This document shows positions 14,176 to 57,874 of a stretch of DNA of 64,000 bases, in pieces. Position numbers and translations under genes: made by a program. How positions within the stretch are numbered: position 1 is the stretch's first letter; every line of letters starts with the position of its first letter. This stretch comes from Beta vulgaris subsp. vulgaris (lineage: Eukaryota > Streptophyta > Magnoliopsida > Caryophyllales > Amaranthaceae): positions 17,996,916 to 18,060,915 of the forward strand of contig NC_079206.1 in assembly GCF_026745355.1 (NCBI RefSeq), given 5' to 3'. The notes under the pieces are model-generated. The model did no database searches. It was not told the origin of the DNA and worked only from the letters and a program-made list of their open reading frames with translations.

Positions 14176-14195
14176 CACTAGTACAAAAAACATCA

Positions 14196-14365
14196 AATGC
14201 TACTTATCAAATGCTTTGGTTGATTAATCAACCCGAGCATTTGTATCACAAATGCTCGTGTTGATTAGTCAACCGGAGCATTTTATACCAAATGCTCCGG
14301 TTGACTAATCAACACGAGCATTTGTGATACAAATGCTCGGGTTGATCAACGGAGCATTTGTGATA
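14196..14365. repeat. Left subterminal palindrome array of CACTA-C
   Basis: About three 36-bp palindromes have the form CAAATGCTCnnGTTGATTA followed by its inverse TCAACnnGAGCATTTG. The same core occurs at the right end. Confidence 0.85.
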
Positions 14366-15283
14366 GGTAGGCGCGAGAGTTATTAATTTTGTTATCAAAT
14401 ATACCTGCTATTACTCAGCCGTCCCTAATTAATGCCCAAGTCTTCAATTCAGTTATCAATTCTCCCAACTCCGAAGTCGCATCTCCCTCCCAACTCCCAA
14501 GTCCTTCGCATCCTCAGCCGTCCTCCGCCGTCCCTCCCTCCCTCCCTCCGCCAGATTTCAATTGGAACTCGCTCGTACAATCCCTGGCCGCCGTTCGAAG
14601 TGCCGCAGTTCGAAGTCCCTGGCGGTTGCTGCTTCCACCACAGTTCAGGTTCAATCGAGTTCGAAGTCGTTGCTGCTTCCACCACAGTTTACCGGCCGCA
14701 GTTCAATCAGGTTTCTTTCTTTCTCTCTCCACCGGCCGCCGTTTGAATTTCACTTTTTTATTCTGCAGAAAACTCAAAAACAGAAAAAAAAATCTACTTG
14801 TTTACTATAATTAACCAAGAAAATGAGAGAAAAAAGACAATAATTGAGATAAAAACAGAATTTATGTTCTAATAATCTCAATGTAATTGCTGAAGCAAAC
14901 AACATTTGGTATCACTTTGGCATTAATCAATCAATCGTAATAACCAAAAACCAATAGCTCAAAACAAATTAAAGATGAATTCTTTCTTTTTTTTTCTCTT
15001 GTCCTATATCCAAATTAGCCTAGTTATATATAAACACAACATAGAATCACAAGCACATAAAACTGGGTTACTCAAAATGCAACATCACAAATTTAAAGCC
15101 AAATTAGTAAACAAATAAAAATAAAGCAGGTGAAAAATTTACTGTACAAAGAACAGAAGGTAAAATGTAGCTAAATTTTGGTTAGGTGTGAAGAGAGTAA
15201 AGAGAGGAGAGAGAGATAAATGACCTGAGATTGTGGATGGAGGGGGGTTTTCCACCACATCCAATTTCAATTGATTTTTGTTT
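14366..15283. other. CACTA-C left interior, no recognised gene
   Basis: A Pro/Ser-rich open stretch (14389-14814, plus strand) with CCGCCGTCCCTCC-type repeats, and a duplicated segment around 'GCTTCCACCACAGTT' (14631-14690). The rest is AT-rich. It may be promoter and 5' leader sequence for the transposase gene or captured DNA; no protein family is recognisable. Confidence 0.4.
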
Positions 15284-15860
15284 TCATGTAATGTCGGTGA
15301 ATATGCTGATTGGGTCTCCTATCATCAACATCATCTTTCTTAACTTCATCCTCATAAATGCCTGAACATCATCATTGGATGTTGGATAAACTGATAATCG
15401 TGTACGTGAAAATGGGTGATCATTTACATGATGATCATTAATCCCAACTTCATTAAGCAAATGTTGAAACCTTGCTGATGATGACAATAATTGATCATAG
15501 GTAGTAATAATGGGTGGAATCAAACTATCCAAATTATTATGAGGGGTGAAATCATTAAGAATCATCTCATTAGGATGATCAAAGGTTTGGATAGCGGGAG
15601 TCGTTGGATTAAGATCATTAACATTAGAGATTTGGTGATCATGATTATGGCCTTGGCGGGATGTGAGGATCATATTAGTGCTAATAATGGAATTATTAAG
15701 TGAGGGAGAAAAGGTGGCGTTAGTCCTCGAATATCATGATCATAACTTAAGAAATTATTTGAGGAAGTGATGTAGGAAGATAATTAAGGTGGAGATAATT
15801 GGAGATAGTATTGAGGTGGTAGTCGACACCGCGTCACCATTGCAGGGAGATGTCATGAGT
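15284..15860 (-). pseudogene. Unidentified plant-like coding remnant inside CACTA-C
   Basis: A 129-codon frame (15284-15673) is rich in Asn, His, Asp and Ser ('NDHHVNDHPFSRTRLS', 'DQLLSSSARFQHLLNE'). A frame-shifted upstream extension reads 'SSNNFLSYDHDIRGLTPPF' to about 15790. The composition resembles the C-terminal tail of a plant transcription factor, but I recognise no domain and cannot name the gene. It is antisense to the transposase gene and could be another captured fragment. Confidence 0.35.
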
Positions 15861-16807
15861 AGTATAAAGAAGATAAATCAAGCAAACTGTGTTGTCCGTG
15901 GTATGTAACTACTAAATGAGAATTATCATGAGTCATTACTAATATAACACTACAATGAGAATTATAGTTAACAGTGAGCTAATGTATTACACCTCGTCCG
16001 TCTCTAAGTTTTATTAAAGGAAGTTATTTGTGGAACTAAGAAAGGAAGTTATTTATAGGGGATGAATGACTACTTTTGTCTGCTAAAGTCGTTGCTAATA
16101 TCAATCCTCTCCTTTTGGTTATAATGCTCAGGATGCCTACATATGGTACACCTTGTCTGTGTCTACTTGCTTCCGCGCGCTTTCTTCTTCTGGTCTCCCA
16201 TAGGTTAGTTGTGCTCCCTCTTACTCTTATGTAAAATTAGTTAACATCTTTGTTAAATGATTTACTTGTATGTTAATTTTGAATCATTAAGAACTCTTTA
16301 AGAATCAAGGACTGGACTTTATTCAAAAGTTTGTTTTTTTTTATGCACAATTAAAGTATCATCATAATCATATGCCTAGATACCCATCCAAGACTTACTA
16401 ATTAGGAGTAAGTCTTGGATAGTCCCCGTTTTGGGACTGTTCTTGGACGTTTGATCTCATTTAGGTGATAAATGTAGTTTTCTTTTTGTTTCTATGGAAA
16501 ATCACGGCTACTCATTTCCCTAATTTGTTCTCTGGGTGCATATGTGATAAGTAATTACCTACATTGCGTACTTGGAGAACTGTAGGGAAATGCTGCCGGA
16601 TTTTCCATAGAATCGAGAAGATGACTACATTTACTAGTGGGATTAGACGTCAAAGGATGGGTTAGGTTGGAGTGATAAGGACCTTTGAAAGACATGCATA
16701 TATTCATGCTATAAATCTTCTTTTGAATTTGCATCTTCATATTGTTTAATGCTTAAATGATTGACAATGTGTTATTATATTGTTTAATTAGTCGTTAAAG
16801 GGTTTGA
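15861..16807. other. Region before the transposase gene, non-coding
   Basis: AT-rich sequence without a recognisable reading frame. An inverted pair near 16388 and 16405 (CAAGACTTACTAATTAG / CTAATTAGGAGTAAGTCTTG) could form a hairpin. It presumably holds the transposase promoter; no TATA box can be assigned with confidence. Confidence 0.4.
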
Positions 16808-19800
16808 ATGGCGAAAGATCGTTCGTGGATGTATGGTAACATTGATTCGTCGAAATTTGTGGATGGGGTACTGGAATTTTTTGATTCTGCCTTAAAACAT
16901 CAAGCTAGGACGGGGGCTTTGGGATTTTATTGTCCTTGTGTTAAGTGTAGTAATGGTTCAAAGTCGATGGTATTGAGTTGCTTAGGGAGCATGTACTTCG
17001 TAATGGGTTTAGGCCTGAATACCATGTGTGGATTTGGCATGGTGAGGAGGGAGTGTATGAAGGGAATTCTTGTGCAAATCATGTCCATGAGCAAGAAGAC
17101 GCGTCTGAGGAAATGGAGTATGATACTGAGGACAAGATTGATGATGATGACAATGATCATGTGGATGAGATGATGGATGGTGTTGAGGATGATTTAGGAC
17201 AACATTCTCGTGTTTTTGAGTCTTTGACAGAGGCAGCACAAAAGCCACTTTATCCTGGTTGTAAAAAATTTACCAAACTTTTTGCGTGTTGACACTTTCA
17301 ACATTAAGTCAAAGGGAAATTGGACCGATATTAGTTTCACTTCCCTGTTGGAAGTGTTAAGTGAGATGTTTCCCGATGGCAATGAACTTCCAAAGTCGAC
17401 TTATTATGCTAGAAAGCTTATGTGTCCCTTTGGCTTAGAGTACAAGAAGATACATGCTTGTCCAAATGACTGCGTGTTATATAGGAATGAATATGACAAT
17501 TTCGATGAGTGTCCACGGTGCGGGAAGTCACGTTACAAGCGAAAGGGGCTGGAGGTTCGAAAGGACCCCCAGCTAAGGTGTTGTGGTATCTTCCAATAAT
17601 ACCTAGATTCAAGCGGTTGTTTTCCATAAAAAAAGATGCAAAAAATCTAAGGTGGCATGCAGACGGAAGGAAGAAAGATAGTTTGTTGAAGCATCCAGCA
17701 GATTCTCCTGAGTGGAAGAGTATTAATAGATTGCATAAGGCATTTGGGAATGAAGATCGTAATTTGAGGCTTGGACTATGTACAGATGGGATGAATCCAT
17801 TCGGAAGTATGAGCTCTTTGCATAGTACATGGCCTGTGCTTTTAGTTATATATAACTTGCCTCCTTGGTTGTGTATGAAACGCAAGTACATGATGTTGTC
17901 GCTACTAATCTCGGGTCCTAAACAGCCCGGAAATGACATAGATGTCTATCTTGCACCACTTATCGATGATCTCAAAAAGCTATGGGATGAAGGGGTTTCT
18001 GTGTTTGATGCTCATGCTAATGAGATGTTCACCTTGCGTGCAATGCTTTTCTGCACCATTAACGATTTCCCGGCGTACGGTAACTTATCTGGGTATAAGA
18101 ATAAAGGTAAGAAAGCATGTCCGATATGTAATGGATGACATGGAATCACATTCATTCCTAATTGCAAACATGTCTACATGCCCCACCGAAAGTTCTTACG
18201 ACCGACCACCCGTTTCGTAAGAAGAAGAAGGCATTTTATGGGTCTGTTGAAGAGGGTGTAGCTCGTAGACCATTGACTGGTAAAGAGGTTTATGAGCAAC
18301 TAAAGGGTGTTGAAACGATCTTTGGTAAAACAATGAAAGAGGAGAAAGGATTATGGAAAAAGGAGTCTATCTTTTGGACACTCCCCTACTGGAAAGACCT
18401 AAAGGTTAGACATTGTCTCGACGTCATGCATATAGAAAAAATGTATGCGATGCTATTCTTGGAACGCTTATGAATATTCCCAATAAGACAAAGGATAACA
18501 AGGCCTCACGATTGTACTTGGAAGAAAAGGAGTTCGGCCAGAATTGTGGCCCCAGGACAAGAAAGGTAAGAAGAGGAAGAAATCTGAAAAAGAAACAAAT
18601 ATTGAGGAAGACAAGAAGGGAAAGAATCAGAAGAAAACAGAAATCTCGAGAAAGTTAAGGTTAAAAAGAACAAAAAAAGTCGACAATAGAAATTATTTGC
18701 CTCCAGCTTGTTATACGTTGTCCAAGGAAGAGAAGCGGATTTTTTGTGAGTCTTTGTATGGCATTAAGGTCCCGTCGGGGTACTCATCTAATATGAAAAG
18801 ATTTGTATCTTTGAATGGCGAGTTAAAATTAGGGTTTATGAAATCTCATGATTGTCATGTTATGATGCAAGTTTTTTACCGATTGCTATTCGTGGGATAC
18901 TACCAAAACATGTGAGGTATGCTATTACTGAACTATGCTCATTTTTCAACACGATATGTAGCAAAGTGCTTGATCCGACAAGACTTGATGCTCTTCAAGC
19001 TGATGTGGTAGAGACTCTTTGTAAGTTTGAAATGTATTTCCCACCTGCATTCTTTGACATAATGGTTCATCTTATCGTCCATCTAGTTCGTGAAATAAAG
19101 CTTTGTGGTCCAGTGTTTTTGAGGTGGTGTTATCCTTTTGAAAGACGAATGGGTACTTTACAAGATAAAGTGAGAAATCCTGCACAACCTGAAGCTAGTA
19201 TCATTCAAGGCACCGTGGGCGATGAAGTTGGTAATTTTGTAGCCGAGTATTTGGCTAGTGCTGAACCTATCGGACTTCCTACATCTCGACATGATGGAAG
19301 ACTTGGAGGCCACGGTACGATTGGCTCAAAATTAGTCACACCTCCAAGGGATAGGCGCCTACAAGCACACTTATATGTGTTGCATCACGTTGCAGCAGTG
19401 CATCCGTATTTGGCTGAGCATATGGAGGTGCTACGGGCTGAAAATCCTTCCAAAGGGGATAGGGCATTGATGCAGTTGCATAATAAGACGTTTATTGATT
19501 GGTTTCATGATCGAGTAATATGTCAACAACAAGATGATGTATCTGAAACTATTAAGTGGTTAGCATTTGGTCCTCGTGAAGCTGTCAACAAATACGAGGG
19601 GTATGATATCAACGGATTTACATTTTGGAGTGAAGGTCAAGATGAAAAGTCATCATCACTAAAAATAGTGGTGTTTCTGTTTTGGCGTCATCTACATTTT
19701 ATGCGAGCGCTAAGGATCGGAATCCAGTGGATGCCAAATTGTTATACTATGGGCGAATTCAAGAAATATGGGAGCTTAACTACTCTAGTTTTAAGGTTGG

Positions 19801-20156
19801 TCTGTTCTGTTGCAAATGGATAGGTAATAATCGGCGTTTTGTAAAAAAGGATGACCCTTGTGGATTCACTCTTGTAGACTTGGGTCATTTGCGTGAAAGG
19901 TGAGCCATTTATACTTGCAACACATGCTAAGCAAGTATTCTATGTAAGAGACCCTGCTGATCATAAGTGGTGTATTGTTGTACCGAGAAAAAGAAGTATC
20001 CTTGGCATTGGCGATGTTGATGATGAGGAAGAATATGATGCTTTTGAGGATAGCCCGCCTTTCATCAATCCCAAAATCGATGTAACATGCGATGCAGATG
20101 TCGACACAAATTATATGCGTGTAGATCACACGGAAGGGATACTTGTCGACTTCTGA
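16808..20156 (+). pseudogene. CACTA-C transposase (tnp2/TnpD-like), multiply frame-shifted
   Basis: The start 'MAKDRSWMYGN' is typical of the transposase-associated N-terminal domain ('GFYCPCVKCSN' follows). The tnp2 transposase core follows with 'SKSTYYARKLM', 'HACPNDCVLYRNEYDNFDECPRCGKSRYK' (a Cys-rich, zinc-binding-like patch), 'LCTDGMNPFG', 'PGNDIDVYLAPLIDDLKKLW', 'NDFPAYGNLSGYKNKGKKACPIC' and 'HCLDVMHIEK'. The C-terminal half has the domains usual for plant TnpD ('YPFERRMGTLQDKVRNPA' near 19130-19190; 'YYGRIQEIWELNYSSFKVGLF' near 19745-19805) and ends at 20156. Frame changes near 16967, 17285, 17560, 18135, 18450, 18880, 19665 and 19890 cannot all be introns, so I call it a pseudogene. 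Known relatives cut and paste the element at its termini. Confidence 0.88.
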
Positions 20157-20600
20157 GAATGATATATTCACGAGGTATTATATGTACAAGTTTATGAATG
20201 TCTTTTATTATTTGGGAGATATGAAACATATTTTTGTGGTTCCTATTCTCATATTATATGTTTTCTATCTTTGAATATCGTTACTTTGCAGTATTCATAT
20301 GATACTTTATATAATGAGTTTGTTTGAGTTTTTGACGTTGACACCTTTGATCTTTTAAAGAACCTCTTATGTTTCCTAGTAAAGCATATGTACATCATAT
20401 ATAAACAAGTGATAACAAGCTATCAATTGACTGCAGGTCATGTGTAGCTGCTTGCTTTTTTTGTTTGATGCCCTACTACATTTGGTCTTCTAGCTGTCAC
20501 AAATCCAATTAGCTTACAGTCACTCTAGCGCTCTAGCATCCAGTTCGCAGGTAACACATTATTAATCATTGAAACTGCTTTTTTATTATTATTGTTGATT
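20157..20600. other. CACTA-C spacer after transposase
   Basis: AT-rich, no recognisable coding sequence; presumably the transposase 3' end and the start of captured DNA. Confidence 0.4.
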
Positions 20601-20779
20601 TATAGTGAGAAAGCTGCTGCTACTATGTTGAGTCAGATTGTTAATGTTGTTCATGTTTGTCACTTTTATGGGTGTTATGCATAGGGATTTGAAGCCTGAG
20701 AATTTTTTACTTGCTAATAAGGATGAGAATGCCGCTTTGAAAGCTACTGATTTTGGACTCTCTGTCTTCATTGAAGAAG
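20601..20779 (+). pseudogene. Captured calcium-dependent protein kinase (CDPK) exon fragment
   Basis: After one extra T near 20668 is allowed for, the reading is '[20 protein letters not shown]' followed by '[19 protein letters not shown]' and '[16 protein letters not shown]'. These are protein-kinase subdomains VIa to VII in the form typical of plant CDPKs: the HRDLKPEN catalytic loop and the DFG magnesium loop. The piece stops at GAAGAAG|GTATAC, a plausible 5' splice site, and further kinase exons are absent. Exon and adjoining intron sequence therefore seem to have been copied from genomic DNA into the transposon. It cannot make an active kinase. Confidence 0.85.
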
Positions 20780-22000
20780 GTATACATATTACTATCACTT
20801 TAAGTGTGATTCGATTTCTTATGACGATTCATGTTGGTCGACCTCGAATTATGTTGTTGTTGTTGTGGTTATTATGATTGTTGTTGTTGACTTGTTGTTG
20901 CTGTTGCATAATCAGTTCTTGGTTTGTTTTAGTTGGAGAGATATTGCTTGGATGTTTATTTGAGCAATGAGCATAGATCATGTGATGTTGAGCATAATTG
21001 GTTTTGATATTCCTGATCCATTGACTTCAAGTTAGCAATGTTCTTCATATTTTTGTGTGGATCCAATAAATAGTACCTGCTATTCTGTTGTAAGGAGTCT
21101 TTGTTTTTTGCTTACCTTTCAATGCCACCAAAAGTACCTGTTACTTTTACTTTAAAAGTTTATCTACTTATAATTTCTGTCATTTATAGTCTAGACTCTA
21201 GACGGTGGAATGTCACGTGACTTTGTATAATAAAGGAAATGAACACATTCAATGAGCACAATTTGAGCTATTTCAACTTGTATGCTTCAATATTGCAAAT
21301 ATGGACGTGCTTAATCTAAGCCGATTTACGTAGCTAACCCATGCAGTTTACTCTTCATGGAATGTAGCTTTCTGATGGATTTATGACTTTGGATAATTGT
21401 TGAAAACGTCAAGCAATTAGTTTTTGACTTTGCCTAATACTACTTTTCTCATTATTGAACTAACTAAACTGTTATCCCCACAATATTACTGTATATCATA
21501 AAAGCAACAAATCAACAATACATCCTGGATCATCAGAGGCATTATGATCTCGAAAGCGAACTAGTGAAGCACGAACGTTTTGAAGGAAGAGAATATAATC
21601 TTGAGGATAAATAATTCATAATAATAGGAGTAATAATATAGTAATAGTACATATCTCAACTTAGGATGCATCTATTTCATGACCGTTAAAAAAGAATAAC
21701 AAGTGTGATTATGTGAATAGATCAAATTGGGCAAAAAGAAGTATTTGACATTTGAACAGAAACGGAAAGAAATGAGTAATATTGGGAAAGATATAAGGAG
21801 AATTTGATCTATTCTCAGGTTTATTACAACTGGAGATGCTGCTTGCATCATTCTCATCTGGTTGTTTCATGTTGTTTTTGTTGAAGTTGGTTTGTTGGGA
21901 GAAGAAAAAGGACTTAAAGTTTAGTAAACTTCTTCTAAGCTATGTTGCTTGGGACTTGCGGTATGATTCCTAAAGGCTCAGCAACAGCTCACTCACGCCA
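20780..22000. other. CACTA-C interior, non-coding
   Basis: AT-rich sequence with a GTT/GTTGTT-rich patch at 20855-20910. No coding region is supported. Some may be intron sequence captured with the CDPK exon. Confidence 0.4.
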
Positions 22001-22380
22001 CTCCCTACACTCACTCACTGATTCCCCCTCCCTCAAACACCCTCAAACACCCTCACTCACCCACTGCCCTACACAGTAATCCCCTCACTGCCCACTGCCA
22101 CTCCCTGCACTCACTGCCTCCCCTCCCTCAAACACCCTCACTCACCCACCTGCACTCCTTCCTACTGCCCACTGCCATCCCTGCACTCACTGATCCCCCT
22201 CCCTCAAACACCCTCAAACACCCACTGCCCTGCACAGTAATCCCCTCACTGCCCCACTGCCCCTCCCTGCACTCACTGCCTCCCTCTCCCTCAAAGACCC
22301 TCACTCACCCAACTGCACTCACTGCATTTCCTCCCACTGCCTGCACTCACTACCTCCCCCTCCCTCACACACCCACCTAC
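21990..22380. repeat. C-rich minisatellite (CACTCACTG / CCCTCCCTCAAACACCC)
   Basis: Irregular tandem copies of CTCACTGCCTCCCCTCCCTCAAACACCC-like units occur with a higher-order period near 100 bp. The strand bias is extreme, with almost no G on the plus strand. It lies just upstream of the second transposon gene. Confidence 0.8.
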
Positions 22381-22505
22381 TTGTATTTTTAATAGTCTAT
22401 TGTTGTATGTAGTATACTAGAACCATAACTCTCTATCCTTTTTTAAAAAAACTGAATGTCTATGACCTCTTTGTGCAGAAGCTAATCTCACATTAGACAT
22501 TCAAG

Positions 22506-25500
22506 ATGACAGATTATGAGAAATGTAGAGAAAAGAGGATAGCGGAAAATAAATTGAAAATGCAAGAAATGGGGATTTGTTCTGCCGCATATGAAACTCA
22601 ATCAAAAAAGGGCACAACACGCAAATATAGGAGTAAGGAGGATGATATTGAGAATGATGAAATGGAGCGTGATAATGATGCTGAGTATGATCCAGAGATG
22701 GAGGATAAAGGTGAGATGGAAGAGGATAAAGGTGAGATGGAAGAGGATAAAGGTGAGGAGGAGACCGATGCTACAACCCGTACCGCAAGTGAAATTGTGA
22801 GTCACAATCCAAAAAAGAAAAGAGGGCGAGGTCCCAAAAAGGACTTAAAAACAAGGAACCCATGCACCTTGAATACGATAAATTTGGTCAACCATGTGGT
22901 AAGTGGCGTCATATGTATGGGCAACAAGTTGGCCTTTGCATGCGCAAACTTTCCATTTTAACAACATGGAAAGAGGTGACGGAGGGTATGAAGAAGGCAT
23001 TGTGGGAAGATACAGTGGTAAGTTTATAAGAGTTCACAATTATTTGGCTGCATTTTATAACATACTTTTTGTGCAACTTTTTTGTTTTTCTTTTTGTAGA
23101 ATTTATTTCATATTGAACCTGATGAAGCCAAGAAGGAAGTATTTTTATCAGCTGTTGCAGAGAGATTTAGAGACTTCAAGACAAAGCTAGTGAGTGGATG
23201 GATCACTTTAAGAAGAAAAAGAACCAAGTCTAAGAAGTTGACAGAAGGAAAGGAAAAGGAGAATGAGGAAGGAGAGGAAAAGGAATAGGAGAATGAGGAA
23301 GGAGAGGAAAAGGAAAATGAGGAGGGAGGGGAAAATGAAAAGGCATTGGAAAAGAAGCAAGGACCGGTGGAGTTGCCTTATGAGATATGGGATCACATCA
23401 CAAAAGAGGATTGGGAAGCATTTGTTGCCCAAAAAACTACTCCGAAAGCAGTTGTAAGTTTTTATCTCATATTTCCTCTAAACAGCTGCATACCTTCCTC
23501 CTAGTTTATGATGTTATTGCTGCTACTCAAAACCATTAAAATAAATCACAATTAATATTTGGCAGATCTCTATTTATTTATATGTTATATGCAACTTTTT
23601 GGTTGTGTGGTGGGTGGCTCCAGTATAAGATGATCCTGTTTGTACTTGCATGAGACCAACTGTCACCTGCCCAGAAAGATCAGTTTGAATGAAAATCAAA
23701 AGGGCAATGCTGAATCTTATGAGAAGACTAACATAATTCCTTAGTTTATCTTAACCTTCAGAGAACAACAAGAAAGCAGTAGTGCAAGCCAGTAGTAATT
23801 CAAGTGGCAAGGAGATGAGAAAATTATTGTTACCTAGTGCTAAAGTTAGTTGACAAGAACCTTCTGTATACTTGGTTGCCGCTTGATTGAATATGACCAC
23901 CTGAAAGATACATGGAATTTTTTTTTTTGATAAAATCCTCTTTCTCTCCAAAGCAGAGAACGATGGTGAACTTGGTTAGATCATGACTGAAGCTCTTATG
24001 CACATCATGGGTGGGTTCTATTCAATTGATTTCGACTTATCTGAAGTTACGTCAACTTATTTGTTATTGGTATAACTTTATGAAACCTACATTAACTTAT
24101 TTAATAAGTAAAAACATGTTGAACAAAACACTATAAACATAGTTCAATTATTTGTATCTAATACCTCTGTCATTTTTTGTTAATCCCATTTGGAATATGC
24201 TGTCTCCGGTGTATACTTCCGAAAACAGATTATGAAAGATATAATAGAACCTTGCATGACTATATATCTTTTTTGAAATATATAAATTACTCAATAAGGT
24301 CAAATGAGACTAATAAAGAAGCACGAGGTGGTTGGAATAAATCCAAACTTTATTTCCAGTCCCTTCATGTACCCAATTGAAACTGTCAATCAAGAAAAAC
24401 TATAGGACCTAGTCATACACTTCCGAGTTCTGAACAATAAATTAAGGTTCCTGAGATGAATCTGTGTCTACATCTGTCAGTTTGTGAGACTAACATCAAG
24501 TAGACTCTCATCTGTTTGTTCAGCCCAAGTGCACCTTACAACAGGGAAGAGTTTAAGAGTGAGACTTTCACTTACAGCCAGATTGAACTTATGTGCAAGC
24601 TTCATCAATTTCAGTGCCATCTCACCAAGAATCCGAGTCCTGAGGGCCATGTCCTCAAAATCTTGACGGAAATAAAATGTTAGACTATCAATTACAACCA
24701 CTTTGACTTGAAAGAACACACAGCTAATAAGTCAGACTCATTCATAACATATGAACAGAATACTGTTGCAGCTATTTGCATAATTAAAATTTCAAACTAG
24801 GCAGACTACAGAAACAAAACTGCTACTGAACATTTTACAAGATTTTTCATAGAATATAGTGTTCGCCTGAATTCCTGAAACAAAACTACCCTTCCACCCC
24901 CCTGCCAGCCTCCTTTTACCCCCTACCACCCCCCTTCCACCCCCCTGCCACCCTCCTTTTACCCCCTGCCACCCCAACTAGTCAATTTTTTTATATTAAT
25001 ATGCCTTTATTGACTATAGTTACCTTTAATTTATATATTTTATATTGATTCTACAGGAAAAGCGCGCTAAAGCTTATATAAGTTCAGGGAAGAAGAAGTT
25101 TTATCATCATATGGGTCCTAAAACTTATGAGCAGAGTAGAAAGGAGTGGATTGAAGTAGATGGTTTTTACCCAAGCATTAGCTCATCGTCGGGGGGAACT
25201 TCTAGCTCTACAATTAAGACAAAGAAGATTGATCGAGTTGCCGATTGGTATTGTTCACTTCATAGTCGAGATGCAAGTGGGAGAAGAACCATTTCTGATC
25301 CGGGAACGAATAAGATAGCCGATGTTGTGGTTAGTATTTAGTGTCACTTCATTTGAGTTTAGTTTTTCAGTTTCCAACTAACCGTTTTCTTATGTGTTCC
25401 TTCTTTCACTAGCTTGGATGGAAGCACAAAGAGGTTACAGGCGAGTTCGTTCCCAAAGCGAACAAGGATGCCTTGTATATGGTACTAGGTAAGGATCATG

Positions 25501-27204
25501 ATGGACGCGTGAAAGGGAAAGGAGGGGTACGACTAGGCTTGAAAAAAGTTTACGGTGAAGAGTACTCCGCAACAAGATCAAGCTCAATTTCTAATGCATC
25601 ACAAGATATGGAGCGCAAAATGAAATCTGCAATAGAGGAGCTTGAGAAGAAGATGAAGAATCAATTCAGTGCCATCTTGGAACACATGGGATTACCTAGC
25701 TTTGACGAGCTCAATATCACTCCTAGGGACAAATTAAGCCAGCAAGATCCTCAGACACTTAAAGAGACACTCAGAGAAGTACCTGATTCGATACCCAATC
25801 CTCCACTACTTGATCCCCCGATACCTGATTTAGAGGTAAAAAAATAATTACTTTTTCAGTTTCTTTTCTAACAAAATATATTATATCATGTTGTTAAAGT
25901 TTGATATAGCCAATTATGTTTTAAATAGGAGGAGACACATTGTGATCTTTTACTTCCCAAATCAAAAGATGGGGAGTTGGTTGTGGTAGCTTATGATCGG
26001 GCACAACCATCGAGAGTGGGCCAAACATCGCATTTGCTGTCGGTAGCAAATTTTTATTTTAATGTGTCTGTAGACACCATTATATGTGGATTTGAAAATT
26101 TCTCACTGCCGGTCCCTAGGGCGGAATGGAGCCTCTTTGTTCTTAATGACGCAGAGGGTAGTTTTGTGTTATGGCCTCGTGCTTGGGTGCGATTTACAGA
26201 TGAGGTAAAATATATGTGACTAAGCATGATGATAGTGATATAAAAGTTTTGCCCAACTCAAAAATATATGCACATTATGAAGTTGATTTGTAATTTTTTC
26301 CTTTATCTGTTCAATTTGTTGTTTATAATCACCATACGCTTTATAGATATTTTATTTCCTCTCCTTTTCATAAAACTGGCATGAAAACATACCAAATGAT
26401 CTTTTCAACTATGTTTTTTTGTGTCTTTTTGTTTCTAAATAGGCTTTGAAGACAAAAAAGGCAAAAAATGTGAGAAATTTGGATGTGAATAAAGAGGTTT
26501 CGCAAGGAAACCGTTCAAAATCGAATGAGGTGGACTCAAAAGCTAACAGTAACAAGGTGAAATCACAACCTATTCTTGCAATTGAAGGAAAGATTTCATC
26601 CAAGGGCTCATCTCCTGATGCAACACCAAAAGGAACGCCACTTGTGTGTGATGAGCAAGTGATCCGATCTCTTAGCAAGTCATGTCTTTGGCTACATGCT
26701 CGGGTTAGCAACTTGCCCGATTCTTCCCCAACAAAGGTTGATTTGGAGAAGTCTCAATTCCATTACCTAGGTGAAGATTCGGCTACTTGGGTATATAAAG
26801 TGGATATTCGGGAATTCCTCTGTGGAGCGATGTTAAATATATCCATATTACAAGTCTTCATGAGGTTATATATAATTAAAGTAACTACTTCAATATTTTG
26901 TTAGTTGTTGACGGTTTTCATTCTAACTTTACTTGATTATTCTTTTAGTGCACTTTACGAAGATTTACTTGGATGTGATTCTGTTTCGAAAGTTGGGTGG
27001 TTATGTCCACAAGAGATTCGTGATGCCAATTGCTTGCACAACCATGCAGAAGCAAATGAGTACATTGAACGGAGTATTAGACAATGTGTTCGATCGGGAG
27101 ATAAGTATATTATCGCTCCATACATTGAAGAGTATGTTTTAGTACCTAATTGATAATGTCTTTTCATAATGCTATTTTGGATAAATATTATTGGTACAAA
27201 TATG

Positions 27205-27251
<47 letters not shown>

Positions 27252-28377
27252 AGTTGAATTTAAATTTTTTTTTTTTTTTTGAGGGGGTGAATTTAAATTT
27301 TTATTATTAGTCTTCATTGGATGCTTTTGGTGATATCTCCTTCAAATCATACAATATACCATTTTGATTCTGTGCGTCAAGAACCACCCCGAGGCTTACT
27401 AGTCAAAAGCATATTGAATAGGTATTGTTATATTTTCATTTTCTTTTAAGTCTTCAATAACATGCATGACATTGTTGTCACTATTATAAAATGTGGTGTT
27501 GTAGTGTGATGAAGAAACTGCGTGGTTCTGGTCCCAGAAGAGCCACACTTCCTCAATGGAAATCAGTGAAGGTTAGTAAATGATTTTAGTTGTCATCTAT
27601 CTTTAAGTTATTAGTCTCCCTAGATTTATTGATCAGATTTTGAGAATTATTTTTTGATTATGTTTTTGAATTTAGTGTGCACAACAACATGACGGGGTTG
27701 CTTGCGGCTATTATGTGATGAGGTTTATGTACGATATAATTTCTTCTTGCACGAAATTTAATGATCTAGAGAAGGTTTGTAACATTTCATCCCCCTTACA
27801 AACTATGACTTGAAATCATTGTAGTAATCCTAAAACATGTTAGAGTAGATTATAAGCAAAAATTACATGCTATGGTATATAAATGGATAAATTGGATCTA
27901 AAATGATCTAAAACGAACTTGATATGACCTTTACTTGCACAAAATTGATTAGAACGATCAACTTTTACTTTTGATCATCCTAGTAATCCTAAAACAACAT
28001 ATTAGAGTAGATTCTAAATTAAAATTACATGATGTGGTATGAAATGGATGCATTGGACCCGAACGGGCTAAATTGACCTTCTAAAGGGATTTACTTACTC
28101 AAAATTGACTTGAACGATCAACTTTGACTTGTAATTATCCTAATAATCCCAAAACAACTTATTAGAATAGATTGTAAGCTAAAAATACATGATATGGAAT
28201 GAAAAAGGATATAATTAATGGCAAAACGACCTAATAACGGATAAATTTTGACATATATATTATTGTCTTTGTTCTTATTAGATTTACAACACGTCAAAGG
28301 AGGAGTCATTCACTATTGAGGAAATCAATGAAGTTCGAGACAAGTTTGCTTCCTTCCTTACCGATAGTTGTCTTTGA
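22506..28377 (+). CDS. CACTA-C second gene: Transposase_24-like region plus Ulp1-like cysteine protease
   Basis: Proposed exons are 22506-23011, 23100-23452, 25057-25329, 25413-25835, 25929-26205, 26443-26864, 26949-27131, 27311-27421, 27506-27571, 27676-27774 and 28282-28377, mostly with GT/AG borders. The N-terminal part is acidic with EEDKGEM repeats; '[18 protein letters not shown]' and '[21 protein letters not shown]' match the plant En/Spm-associated transposase region. The C-terminal part is a C48 (Ulp1/SUMO-protease) domain: catalytic HW at 27315-27320, Asp at 27366-27368, Gln at 27685-27687 and Cys in '[12 protein letters not shown]' at 27703-27705. A frameshift near 22870 and a stop near 23287 suggest decay of the 5' part. 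The 1.6-kb third intron holds the antisense RAD51C fragments. Exon borders are my reading only. Confidence 0.7.
23200..23345 (+). repeat. GAGGAAGGAGAGGAAAAGGAA minisatellite within exon 2
   Basis: Three to four purine-only repeats encode Glu/Lys-rich sequence. The in-frame stop near 23287 lies inside this array, and a comparable GATAAAGGTGAGATGGAAGA array lies in exon 1 (22707-22765). Confidence 0.7.
23834..23900 (-). pseudogene. RAD51C: Captured RAD51C exon fragment B
   Basis: The 67-bp exon reads '[23 protein letters not shown]'. It resembles the RAD51C segment following Walker B (consensus 'VVLLNQVTTK.TEGSFQLTLALG'). It is bordered on the minus strand by a pyrimidine-rich acceptor ending TTTCAG and by a donor GTAACA. 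It would join in frame to fragment A after 'FNLA'. RAD51C is a RecA-family recombination mediator. This piece lacks Walker A and could not function by itself. Confidence 0.82.
24576..24706 (-). pseudogene. RAD51C: Captured RAD51C exon fragment A
   Basis: The reading is '[20 protein letters not shown]' then '[23 protein letters not shown]', ending at the donor GTAAGTG. 'VVVIDS' is the Walker B strand of RecA/RAD51 family ATPases, and the following helix is characteristic of RAD51C. The acceptor on the minus strand reads TTCTTTCAAG. Order and orientation relative to fragment B agree with a normal gene, with about 675 bp of intron between them. Both lie inside an intron of the transposon's second gene on the opposite strand. 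Confidence 0.85.
24868..24975. repeat. CCACCCCCCTGCCA minisatellite
   Basis: Four to five tandem variants of a C-rich unit (CTTCCACCCCCCTGCCACCCTCCTTTTACCCC) occur inside the large intron, between the RAD51C fragments and the next exon. Confidence 0.75.
27209..27248. repeat. (AT)n microsatellite in an intron
   Basis: About 20 AT units, followed by a T-rich stretch, within the intron before the exon with the catalytic His. Confidence 0.9.
27815..28260. repeat. Three tandem repeats of about 160 bp in the last intron
   Basis: The block GTAATCCTAAAACA...TTAGAGTAGATT recurs near 27823, 27985 and 28143. Each is followed by ACATGATATGGTATGAAATGGAT-like and AAAATTGACTTGAACGATCAA-like sequence. The units have diverged by point changes and small indels, so the amplification is not recent. 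Confidence 0.8.
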
Positions 28378-28674
28378 TTTTGATATGTATGTAGTTACTT
28401 ATGATGTAAACACATGCATACTTTGAATTTAGAGTAGTATTTTGTAATTCAATTCTACACTTCATTATAATATAATTTTAATTTGAAAGTTAATTTGTTG
28501 GATTATTGAATTTCTGTATGCAATTTGTTGGATATACTTTGGATGAATATTGTATAGCAATGAGGAGGGCACGAGGTGGAGAATTGTAACAGAGTCTGCG
28601 TGCGCAATATATTTGTAACAGCTCTAGAAATCATATTTGAAAACGGTGCTAATTTTATAAATAATAAAAAAAAA

Positions 28675-28945
28675 GAACAAATGCTCCGGTTGTTAGCAAA
28701 AAACGGAGCACTTGATGGGACAAATGCTCCAGTTATTAGCTAAAAACCGGAGCATTTGACAAATTTTGAAGGCAAAAACTGTACAAATGCTCCGGTTTTC
28801 AAGACAACAGGAGCATTTGTCCCATCAAATGCTCCCGTTGAAAACCGGAGCATTTGTTATTGTCCAATTGCTCGTATGACGTCAGCTACGCGTAAAAAAC
28901 GGAGCATTTGAAGGGTTTTTAACCGGAGCATTTGATGTTTTTTGT
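28675..28945. repeat. Right subterminal palindrome array of CACTA-C
   Basis: Four to five units carry ACAAATGCTCCGGTT and the inverse AACCGGAGCATTTG. One spacer includes a CAAGACAAC-type loop. The core is the same as in the left array. Confidence 0.85.
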
Positions 28946-28952
28946 ACTAGTG

Positions 28953-57420: not shown

Positions 57421-57874
57421 GGGCTAGCCCGATCATACGCTTAATTCATGTCAAGCTTAAGAGCTGCTAAATGATGTGATCCTAATCTTTATTTATTGAT
57501 GATATGTAATAATTCACGGGAACTAAGGATGTGATCCTCCATTTGACGCCCCGAAACAAAAGCATTTTGGAAATTTTCTGTGAGGTTTGGTAGAAGAGGT
57601 TGCATTCTCTTAACCATGCATTTCGAGATACATTTATAGATAACATGGGGCTAGCCCGATCATACGCTTAATTCATGTCAAGCTTAAGAGCTGCTAAATG
57701 ATGTGATCCTAATCTTTATTTATTGATGATATGTAATAATTCACGGGAAATAAGGATGTGATCCTCCATTTGACGTCCCGAAACAAAAGCATTTTGGAAA
57801 TTTTCTGTGAGGTTTGGTAGAAGAGGTTGCATTCTCTTAACCATGCATTTCGAGATACATTTATAGATAACATG
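57421..57874. repeat. 227-bp tandem duplication
   Basis: 57421-57647 and 57648-57874 are the same sequence with about two mismatches (GGGAACTAAGG versus GGGAAATAAGG; GACGCCCCG versus GACGTCCCG). The unit spans LINE RT coding sequence, so the duplication followed LINE insertion. Confidence 0.95.

Follow-up and report, generated by a model that had tools for sequence, protein, structure and literature searches.

That CACTA transposons take up pieces of host genes is established (PMC8978399, PMC1947982, PMC8903248, PMC13317346), and several described systems resemble the beet element analyzed here, each in part. Tgm-Express1 of soybean, a 5.7-kb element that likewise has CACTA ends and several host gene fragments with their introns, carries five such fragments that become part of the spliced transcript of the gene harboring it, whereas in the beet element the captured pieces lie between or inside remnant transposon genes and the RAD51C piece is antisense to the second of these (PMC1947982). 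The CACTA elements of Chenopodium share with it the plant family group, the superfamily, similar terminal inverted repeats (TIRs) and the presence of a tandem array alongside pieces of host genes, but their fragments are situated in the 5' region, outside the coding sequence, while the beet fragment is within a gene-2 intron whose contents vary by copy (PMC8978399). Pack-TYPE elements (i.e., Pack-CACTA) are also TIR elements that carry and multiply host coding DNA; the survey assigns elements matching a transposase to an autonomous or derived class, and the beet element retains such remnants (PMC8903248). With the gap filling and FoSTeST models of animal Pack-TIRs the likeness is one of process, i.e., template switching at short homologies (1-36 bp in animals, median 2 bp), repeats as the stalling site and amplification by transposition, though these are animal elements and plant Pack-MULEs are posed as a question by the authors (PMC8277862). 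Beet itself has Coe1, a CACTA-type transposase gene inside retroelement-like sequence (PMC2426827). Among the matches listed from a limited collection, no title described a RAD51C-transposon capture, such a Beta vulgaris CACTA case, or a minisatellite-linked capture site in CACTA.

The window, i.e., the whole stretch of 64,000 nucleotides that was analyzed (C6:17996916-18060915 of the 569-Mb Beta vulgaris genome), contains the following transposon features.

14176..28952, plus strand: CACTA (En/Spm) element, 14,777 bp, TIR CACTAGTACAAAAAACATCAAATGCT, target site duplication (TSD) CCA/CCA
16808..20157 (approximate limits), plus strand: remnant of a TNP2 transposase gene, with Transpos_assoc, Transposase_21, DUF4218 and DUF4216
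22506..28377 (approximate limits), plus strand: gene 2, with an Ulp1/C48 peptidase at its end and an N-terminal part without a Pfam match
23454..25056, plus strand: gene-2 intron holding the capture, phase 0, GT..AG

The CACTA-ended TIRs form a perfect 26-bp inverted repeat with its ends at 14176 and 28952, CCA is found on both sides as the 3-bp target duplication, and Transposase_21 is present (1.4e-75 and 8.6e-81) and designates the transposase as TNP2-type, so that TSD, TIR and transposase all agree with a CACTA (En/Spm) element. The transposase gene is broken in this copy, as its domains lie in different frames with intervening stops. Host coding DNA with located parents (RAD51C, a CDPK and a NAC gene) is present between the TIRs, as in Pack-CACTA, but Pack-TYPE elements show no transposase match, and owing to the retained transposase domains the beet element is not a strict Pack-CACTA. 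On both sides it is flanked by minus-strand frames that, by eye and from familiar motifs, we take to be copia-like pol and gag, which suggests that the CACTA element was inserted into a copia-like element on the minus strand. Outside the CACTA element, a 227-bp unit is tandemly duplicated with 99% identity (57421-57874).

Gene 2 ends in a Peptidase_C48 (Ulp1-type) domain (Pfam, 1.3e-9) and is damaged as well: the reading frame is shifted in the first coding exon and interrupted by a stop codon in the following one. P0121 and P0122 are Beta relatives, and a database search with a part of P0122 returned no match except P0122. The reading frame runs uninterrupted over the junction of intron 23454-25056, whose donor and acceptor are canonical, and the annotated relative P0121 is continuous at two gene-2 intron junctions (PKAV/EKR and DAV/LGW), which supports this intron. 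The original prediction placed the capture in the third intron of the second CACTA gene; by the present gene model it is the second coding intron. Within it lie the following features.

23620..24883 (right limit approximate), minus strand: captured RAD51C genomic fragment, introns kept
24576..24707, minus strand: RAD51C exon A (residues 222-265), without DNA differences from the parent but with a mutated acceptor
23834..23900, minus strand: RAD51C exon B with L269F, covering residues 266-287 plus 1 nt
23620..23666, minus strand: last RAD51C exon (exon C), truncated after W303
24889..24975, plus strand: C-rich minisatellite adjoining the capture, with a minus-strand G-quadruplex-type motif at 24919-24953

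The captured coding part thus comprises residues 222-303 of RAD51C in three exons, antisense to gene 2; Walker B presumably lies in exon A. In a tblastn search RAD51 homolog 3 matched the window in three ordered minus-strand segments (1.5e-23, 3.7e-9 and 9.1e-6), one exon more than the two originally recognized, the third ending after the W303 codon. The 81 amino acids spliced from the fragment match Pfam Rad51 (6.7e-8), the top database protein for them is RAD51 homolog 3 of Beta vulgaris (99%, with 90% of the query covered), and among solved structures RAD51C chains are the best (1.1e-18), compared with ~1e-4 or weaker for RAD51B, XRCC3 and DMC1. These structure and protein matches exclude another RecA-family gene, and the identity as RAD51C, on the strand opposite to the second CACTA gene and within one of its introns, stands as first proposed. 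The splice sites were described at the outset as recognizable, but the exon A acceptor is mutated and reads CAA in the window and CAG in the parent. Two other origins were also rejected: the fragment cannot be the exons of a living RAD51C split by transposons, given that the rest of the gene is absent from the window and residues 33-345 are encoded on C1, nor is it a retrocopy, given that its introns are retained.

The parental gene, for which the original prediction proposed a search of the host genome, was found there at C1:52.75 Mb, i.e., on another chromosome of the same genome (C1:52747560-52751788, residues 33-345 by tblastn). Owing to the retention of the RAD51C introns, capture must have taken place at the DNA level. 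When the genome was searched with the intron, RAD51C sequence turned up at six loci; besides the window and the parent, these were C10, C1:37.2, C3:45.2 and C11:49.16. With gaps and poorly aligned columns excluded, the window copy differs from the parent at 20 of 1194 compared sites, which designates the capture as recent; C10 differs at 26/1271, C1:37.2 at 13/787, C3:45.2 at 13/786 and C11 at 33/554. The intron comparison proposed beforehand gave 17 differences in 948 sites for the window copy, against 3 in 246 for the exons (Fisher p = 0.78). Plant substitution rates are 0.65 to 1.3e-8 per site per year, and at these general rates a divergence of 1.7% would correspond to roughly 0.6 to 1.3 million years. 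The diverged C11 fragment (C11:49163633-49164284, L018 6633-7284; parent positions 5742-6390 of L023) stands apart, and a scan of 18 kb around it gave no further match to the CACTA element of the window.

The RAD51C capture is present at the same site and in the same orientation in four elements, C6 (window), C10, C1:37.2 and C3:45.2, whose TSDs differ (CCA, CAA, TGT and TAT, respectively); in the last two, exon A has been reduced to about a quarter, exon B has lost its end and exon C is missing altogether. The 5' segment at 14380-16780 has a full match only in these four carriers (40 of 1042 candidates were scored), and the remaining family copies match only from about 15926 onward, with the exceptions of C3:27.38 and C5:36.64, which have short matches near the segment start. 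This distribution suggests that the four carriers form one lineage. They are not grouped in a backbone tree of 12 copies, in which only the pairing of C1:37.2 with C3:45.2 is firm (0.996), the remaining splits among close copies being at 0.48-0.87 (combined tree), and the nearest backbone relative of the window element is the capture-free C12:24.6 (31/3239 sites, against 44-48 for the carriers). Given that divergence among close copies is only about 1.0-1.6%, the tree is of weak power; exchange between elements is also possible, as the carriers are ungrouped and the window copy is nearest to a capture-free one. In the C10 copy, the same intron also contains a nested LTR retrotransposon (C10:35751342-35760497, ~9.2 kb, TSD CCCTT), whose LTRs show 21 mismatches and 30 gap positions in an alignment of 1800 columns.

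The presence of a capture-bearing lineage at no fewer than four loci might be taken to mean that the fragment, itself a neutral passenger, offers host-like sequence that reduces silencing of the transposon, a camouflage that has been proposed for captured fragments (PMC8978399, PMC13317346). Among the scored candidates, however, relatives that lack the carriers' 5' segment (some of them distant) outnumber the four carriers, and we consider such an effect improbable.

RAD51C is one of several acquisitions of the window element: at least six other loci are represented in it by pieces, and three of these were identified as genes (RAD51C, a CDPK and a NAC gene). The remaining pieces are as follows.

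20604..21065, plus strand: exon and intron piece of a CDPK (calcium-dependent protein kinase), source C5:3.92 Mb
21061..21808, no strand assigned: piece shared with C1:64.025 Mb (genome match)
21811..21960, minus strand: start of a NAC gene (5' leader plus first codons) from C10:13.796 Mb
14764..15250, no strand assigned: piece shared with C5:52.29 Mb, 87%, within the 5' segment of the carriers
15307..15842, no strand assigned: piece shared with C10:53.96 Mb, 93%, within the 5' segment of the carriers

The CDPK source encodes kinase and EF-hand domains; for pieces with no gene assigned, the matching copy is assumed to be the source. Pfam found no match in six frames of 14380-16780, nor around the C1:64 source. 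Inside the region of the 5' pieces (14764-15842) an antisense frame at about 15300-15750 stays open for over 100 codons. The patch at 20604-21960, situated between both transposon genes, consists of three chained pieces, shared in turn with C5, C1 and C10, and its joins involve 1 nt, 5 nt, a 2-nt insert and 2 nt. It has no match in the three capture-free copies compared (C3:27.37, C12:24.61 and C11:21.95) and is common, with gaps, to C1:37.2 and C3:45.2; in C10 there is a deletion at this place. Just downstream of the patch lies a second C-rich minisatellite (21997-22374), with several minus-strand G-quadruplex motifs.

The original left junction of the RAD51C piece is preserved in C10, where the host intron reads CCTTAGCTGGTAA and the parent CCTTAGCTGTAA; GTAA is exact and 12 of 13 positions agree with one 1-nt gap, the common sequence being CCTTAGCTG-G-TAA. 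At the right junction there is no clear overlap. Compared with C10, a stretch of 140 bp is missing from the window copy; this deletion, which shows an overlap of 4 bp at 23619-23622, truncated its last RAD51C exon. Of the repair models described, gap filling or FoSTeST (PMC8277862) comes closest to these junctions. The hybrid-element model reported for Arabidopsis Pack-CACTA (Catoni et al. 2019, as related in PMC13317346), in which two neighboring elements are excised together and enclose the host DNA between them, would place that DNA differently: here the RAD51C piece is mid-element, between the head and tail of one gene-2 intron, the other pieces sit elsewhere in the element and are chained from different chromosomes, and the intron junctions show short homology. 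As enclosed host DNA would not occupy such positions, we regard co-excision as extremely unlikely.

Of 12 family copies, 11 yielded the gene-2 intron (the window and 10 of the 11 fetched regions), and its layout is that of a conserved head and a C-rich tail around varying contents. Genome matches were sought for four classes of content and found for all four: the antisense RAD51C; a piece of a GAT-domain gene from C2:46.1 Mb, in sense orientation, in another family member; a chain of pieces from C5:0.24, C10:0.09 and C9:19.2 Mb with 2-nt overlaps; and pieces from C9:70.4 plus C9:9.27 Mb, the latter two classes having no gene assigned. Further contents are a fill in C12:31.27/C5:36.63 and an extra segment in C3:45.24/C1:37.21. 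Since different pieces occupy the same intron in other copies, this intron, beside the C-rich minisatellite, is apparently a site of recurrent capture that is filled by templated repair of breaks. Eight of 11 introns have a simple, strictly defined G-quadruplex motif in the minus strand of their C-rich tail; C10, C1:37.2 and C3:45.2, i.e., the three other RAD51C carriers, lack it. The link between minisatellite and capture is drawn from adjacency, and the minisatellite may be the cause of the break. A bolder proposal, which we find rather doubtful, is that the C-rich, G-quadruplex-type minisatellite acts as a fragile site and the intron as a replaceable cassette, repeatedly sampling host genes through templated repair; one CACTA family would then carry various host pieces, sense or antisense, in transcribed introns, and some of them would yield small RNAs against their donor, in this case RAD51C.

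If made, the primary transcript of gene 2 would carry antisense RAD51C, and one could postulate a regulatory device, in which antisense or small RNAs from gene 2 lower RAD51C in trans, perhaps to the benefit of the element. Such a role would be consistent with a fragment antisense to the host RAD51C mRNA and with the number of exact 21-mers shared by parent and window (112/112 in exon A, 27/27 in the compared part of the last exon, 12/47 in exon B); small RNAs from exon A would match the RAD51C mRNA perfectly, as its 132 nt are identical to the parent. There is also precedent, in that maize Helitrons, Pack-MULEs and Sireviruses are described as siRNA reservoirs that silence donors (PMC13317346). 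Yet C1:37.2 and C3:45.2 keep little of exon A and nothing of exon C, and their exon B lacks its end; the C10 copy has changed at 6 of 246 exon sites, and in the window copy exons have diverged as much as introns, giving no sign of exon constraint. Its exon A acceptor is mutated, both transposon genes are broken, and orientation varies between captures at this intron, the GAT-domain piece being sense. The fragment thus resembles a leftover of repair more than a functioning regulator, and we judge a regulatory device to be very improbable.

The reading that we hold to be very likely is that RAD51C was captured by templated repair, that transposition then carried it to four loci and that the fragment is now drifting. 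We infer that a DNA break or stalled fork arose in the gene-2 intron, at or beside the C-rich minisatellite, and that its repair copied in about 1.3 kb of RAD51C from the other chromosome, one end joining in short, imperfect homology and the opposite end showing no clear overlap. At least five other loci would have supplied further pieces, probably in a similar way, and the capture-bearing element would then have moved to its present four loci. The antisense orientation would be incidental, and it was probably tolerated because the reversed splice sites of the captured piece are not recognized in the gene-2 transcript. At present the RAD51C fragment would simply be drifting.

Against the literature compared, we have not seen described a capture in the gene-2 intron, its varied fills, or a case with both the parent and the pre-capture site resolved. 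The junctions can be read because the event is recent and parent and pre-capture site are present in one genome. A single intron of this family holds at least four different acquired contents, so that the question of how plant TIR transposons take up host gene pieces can be addressed at a single site, where the minisatellite is a definite candidate cause. RAD51C acts in plant meiosis (PMC5470734); should small RNAs arise from the fragment, a transposon would be targeting this DNA-repair gene.
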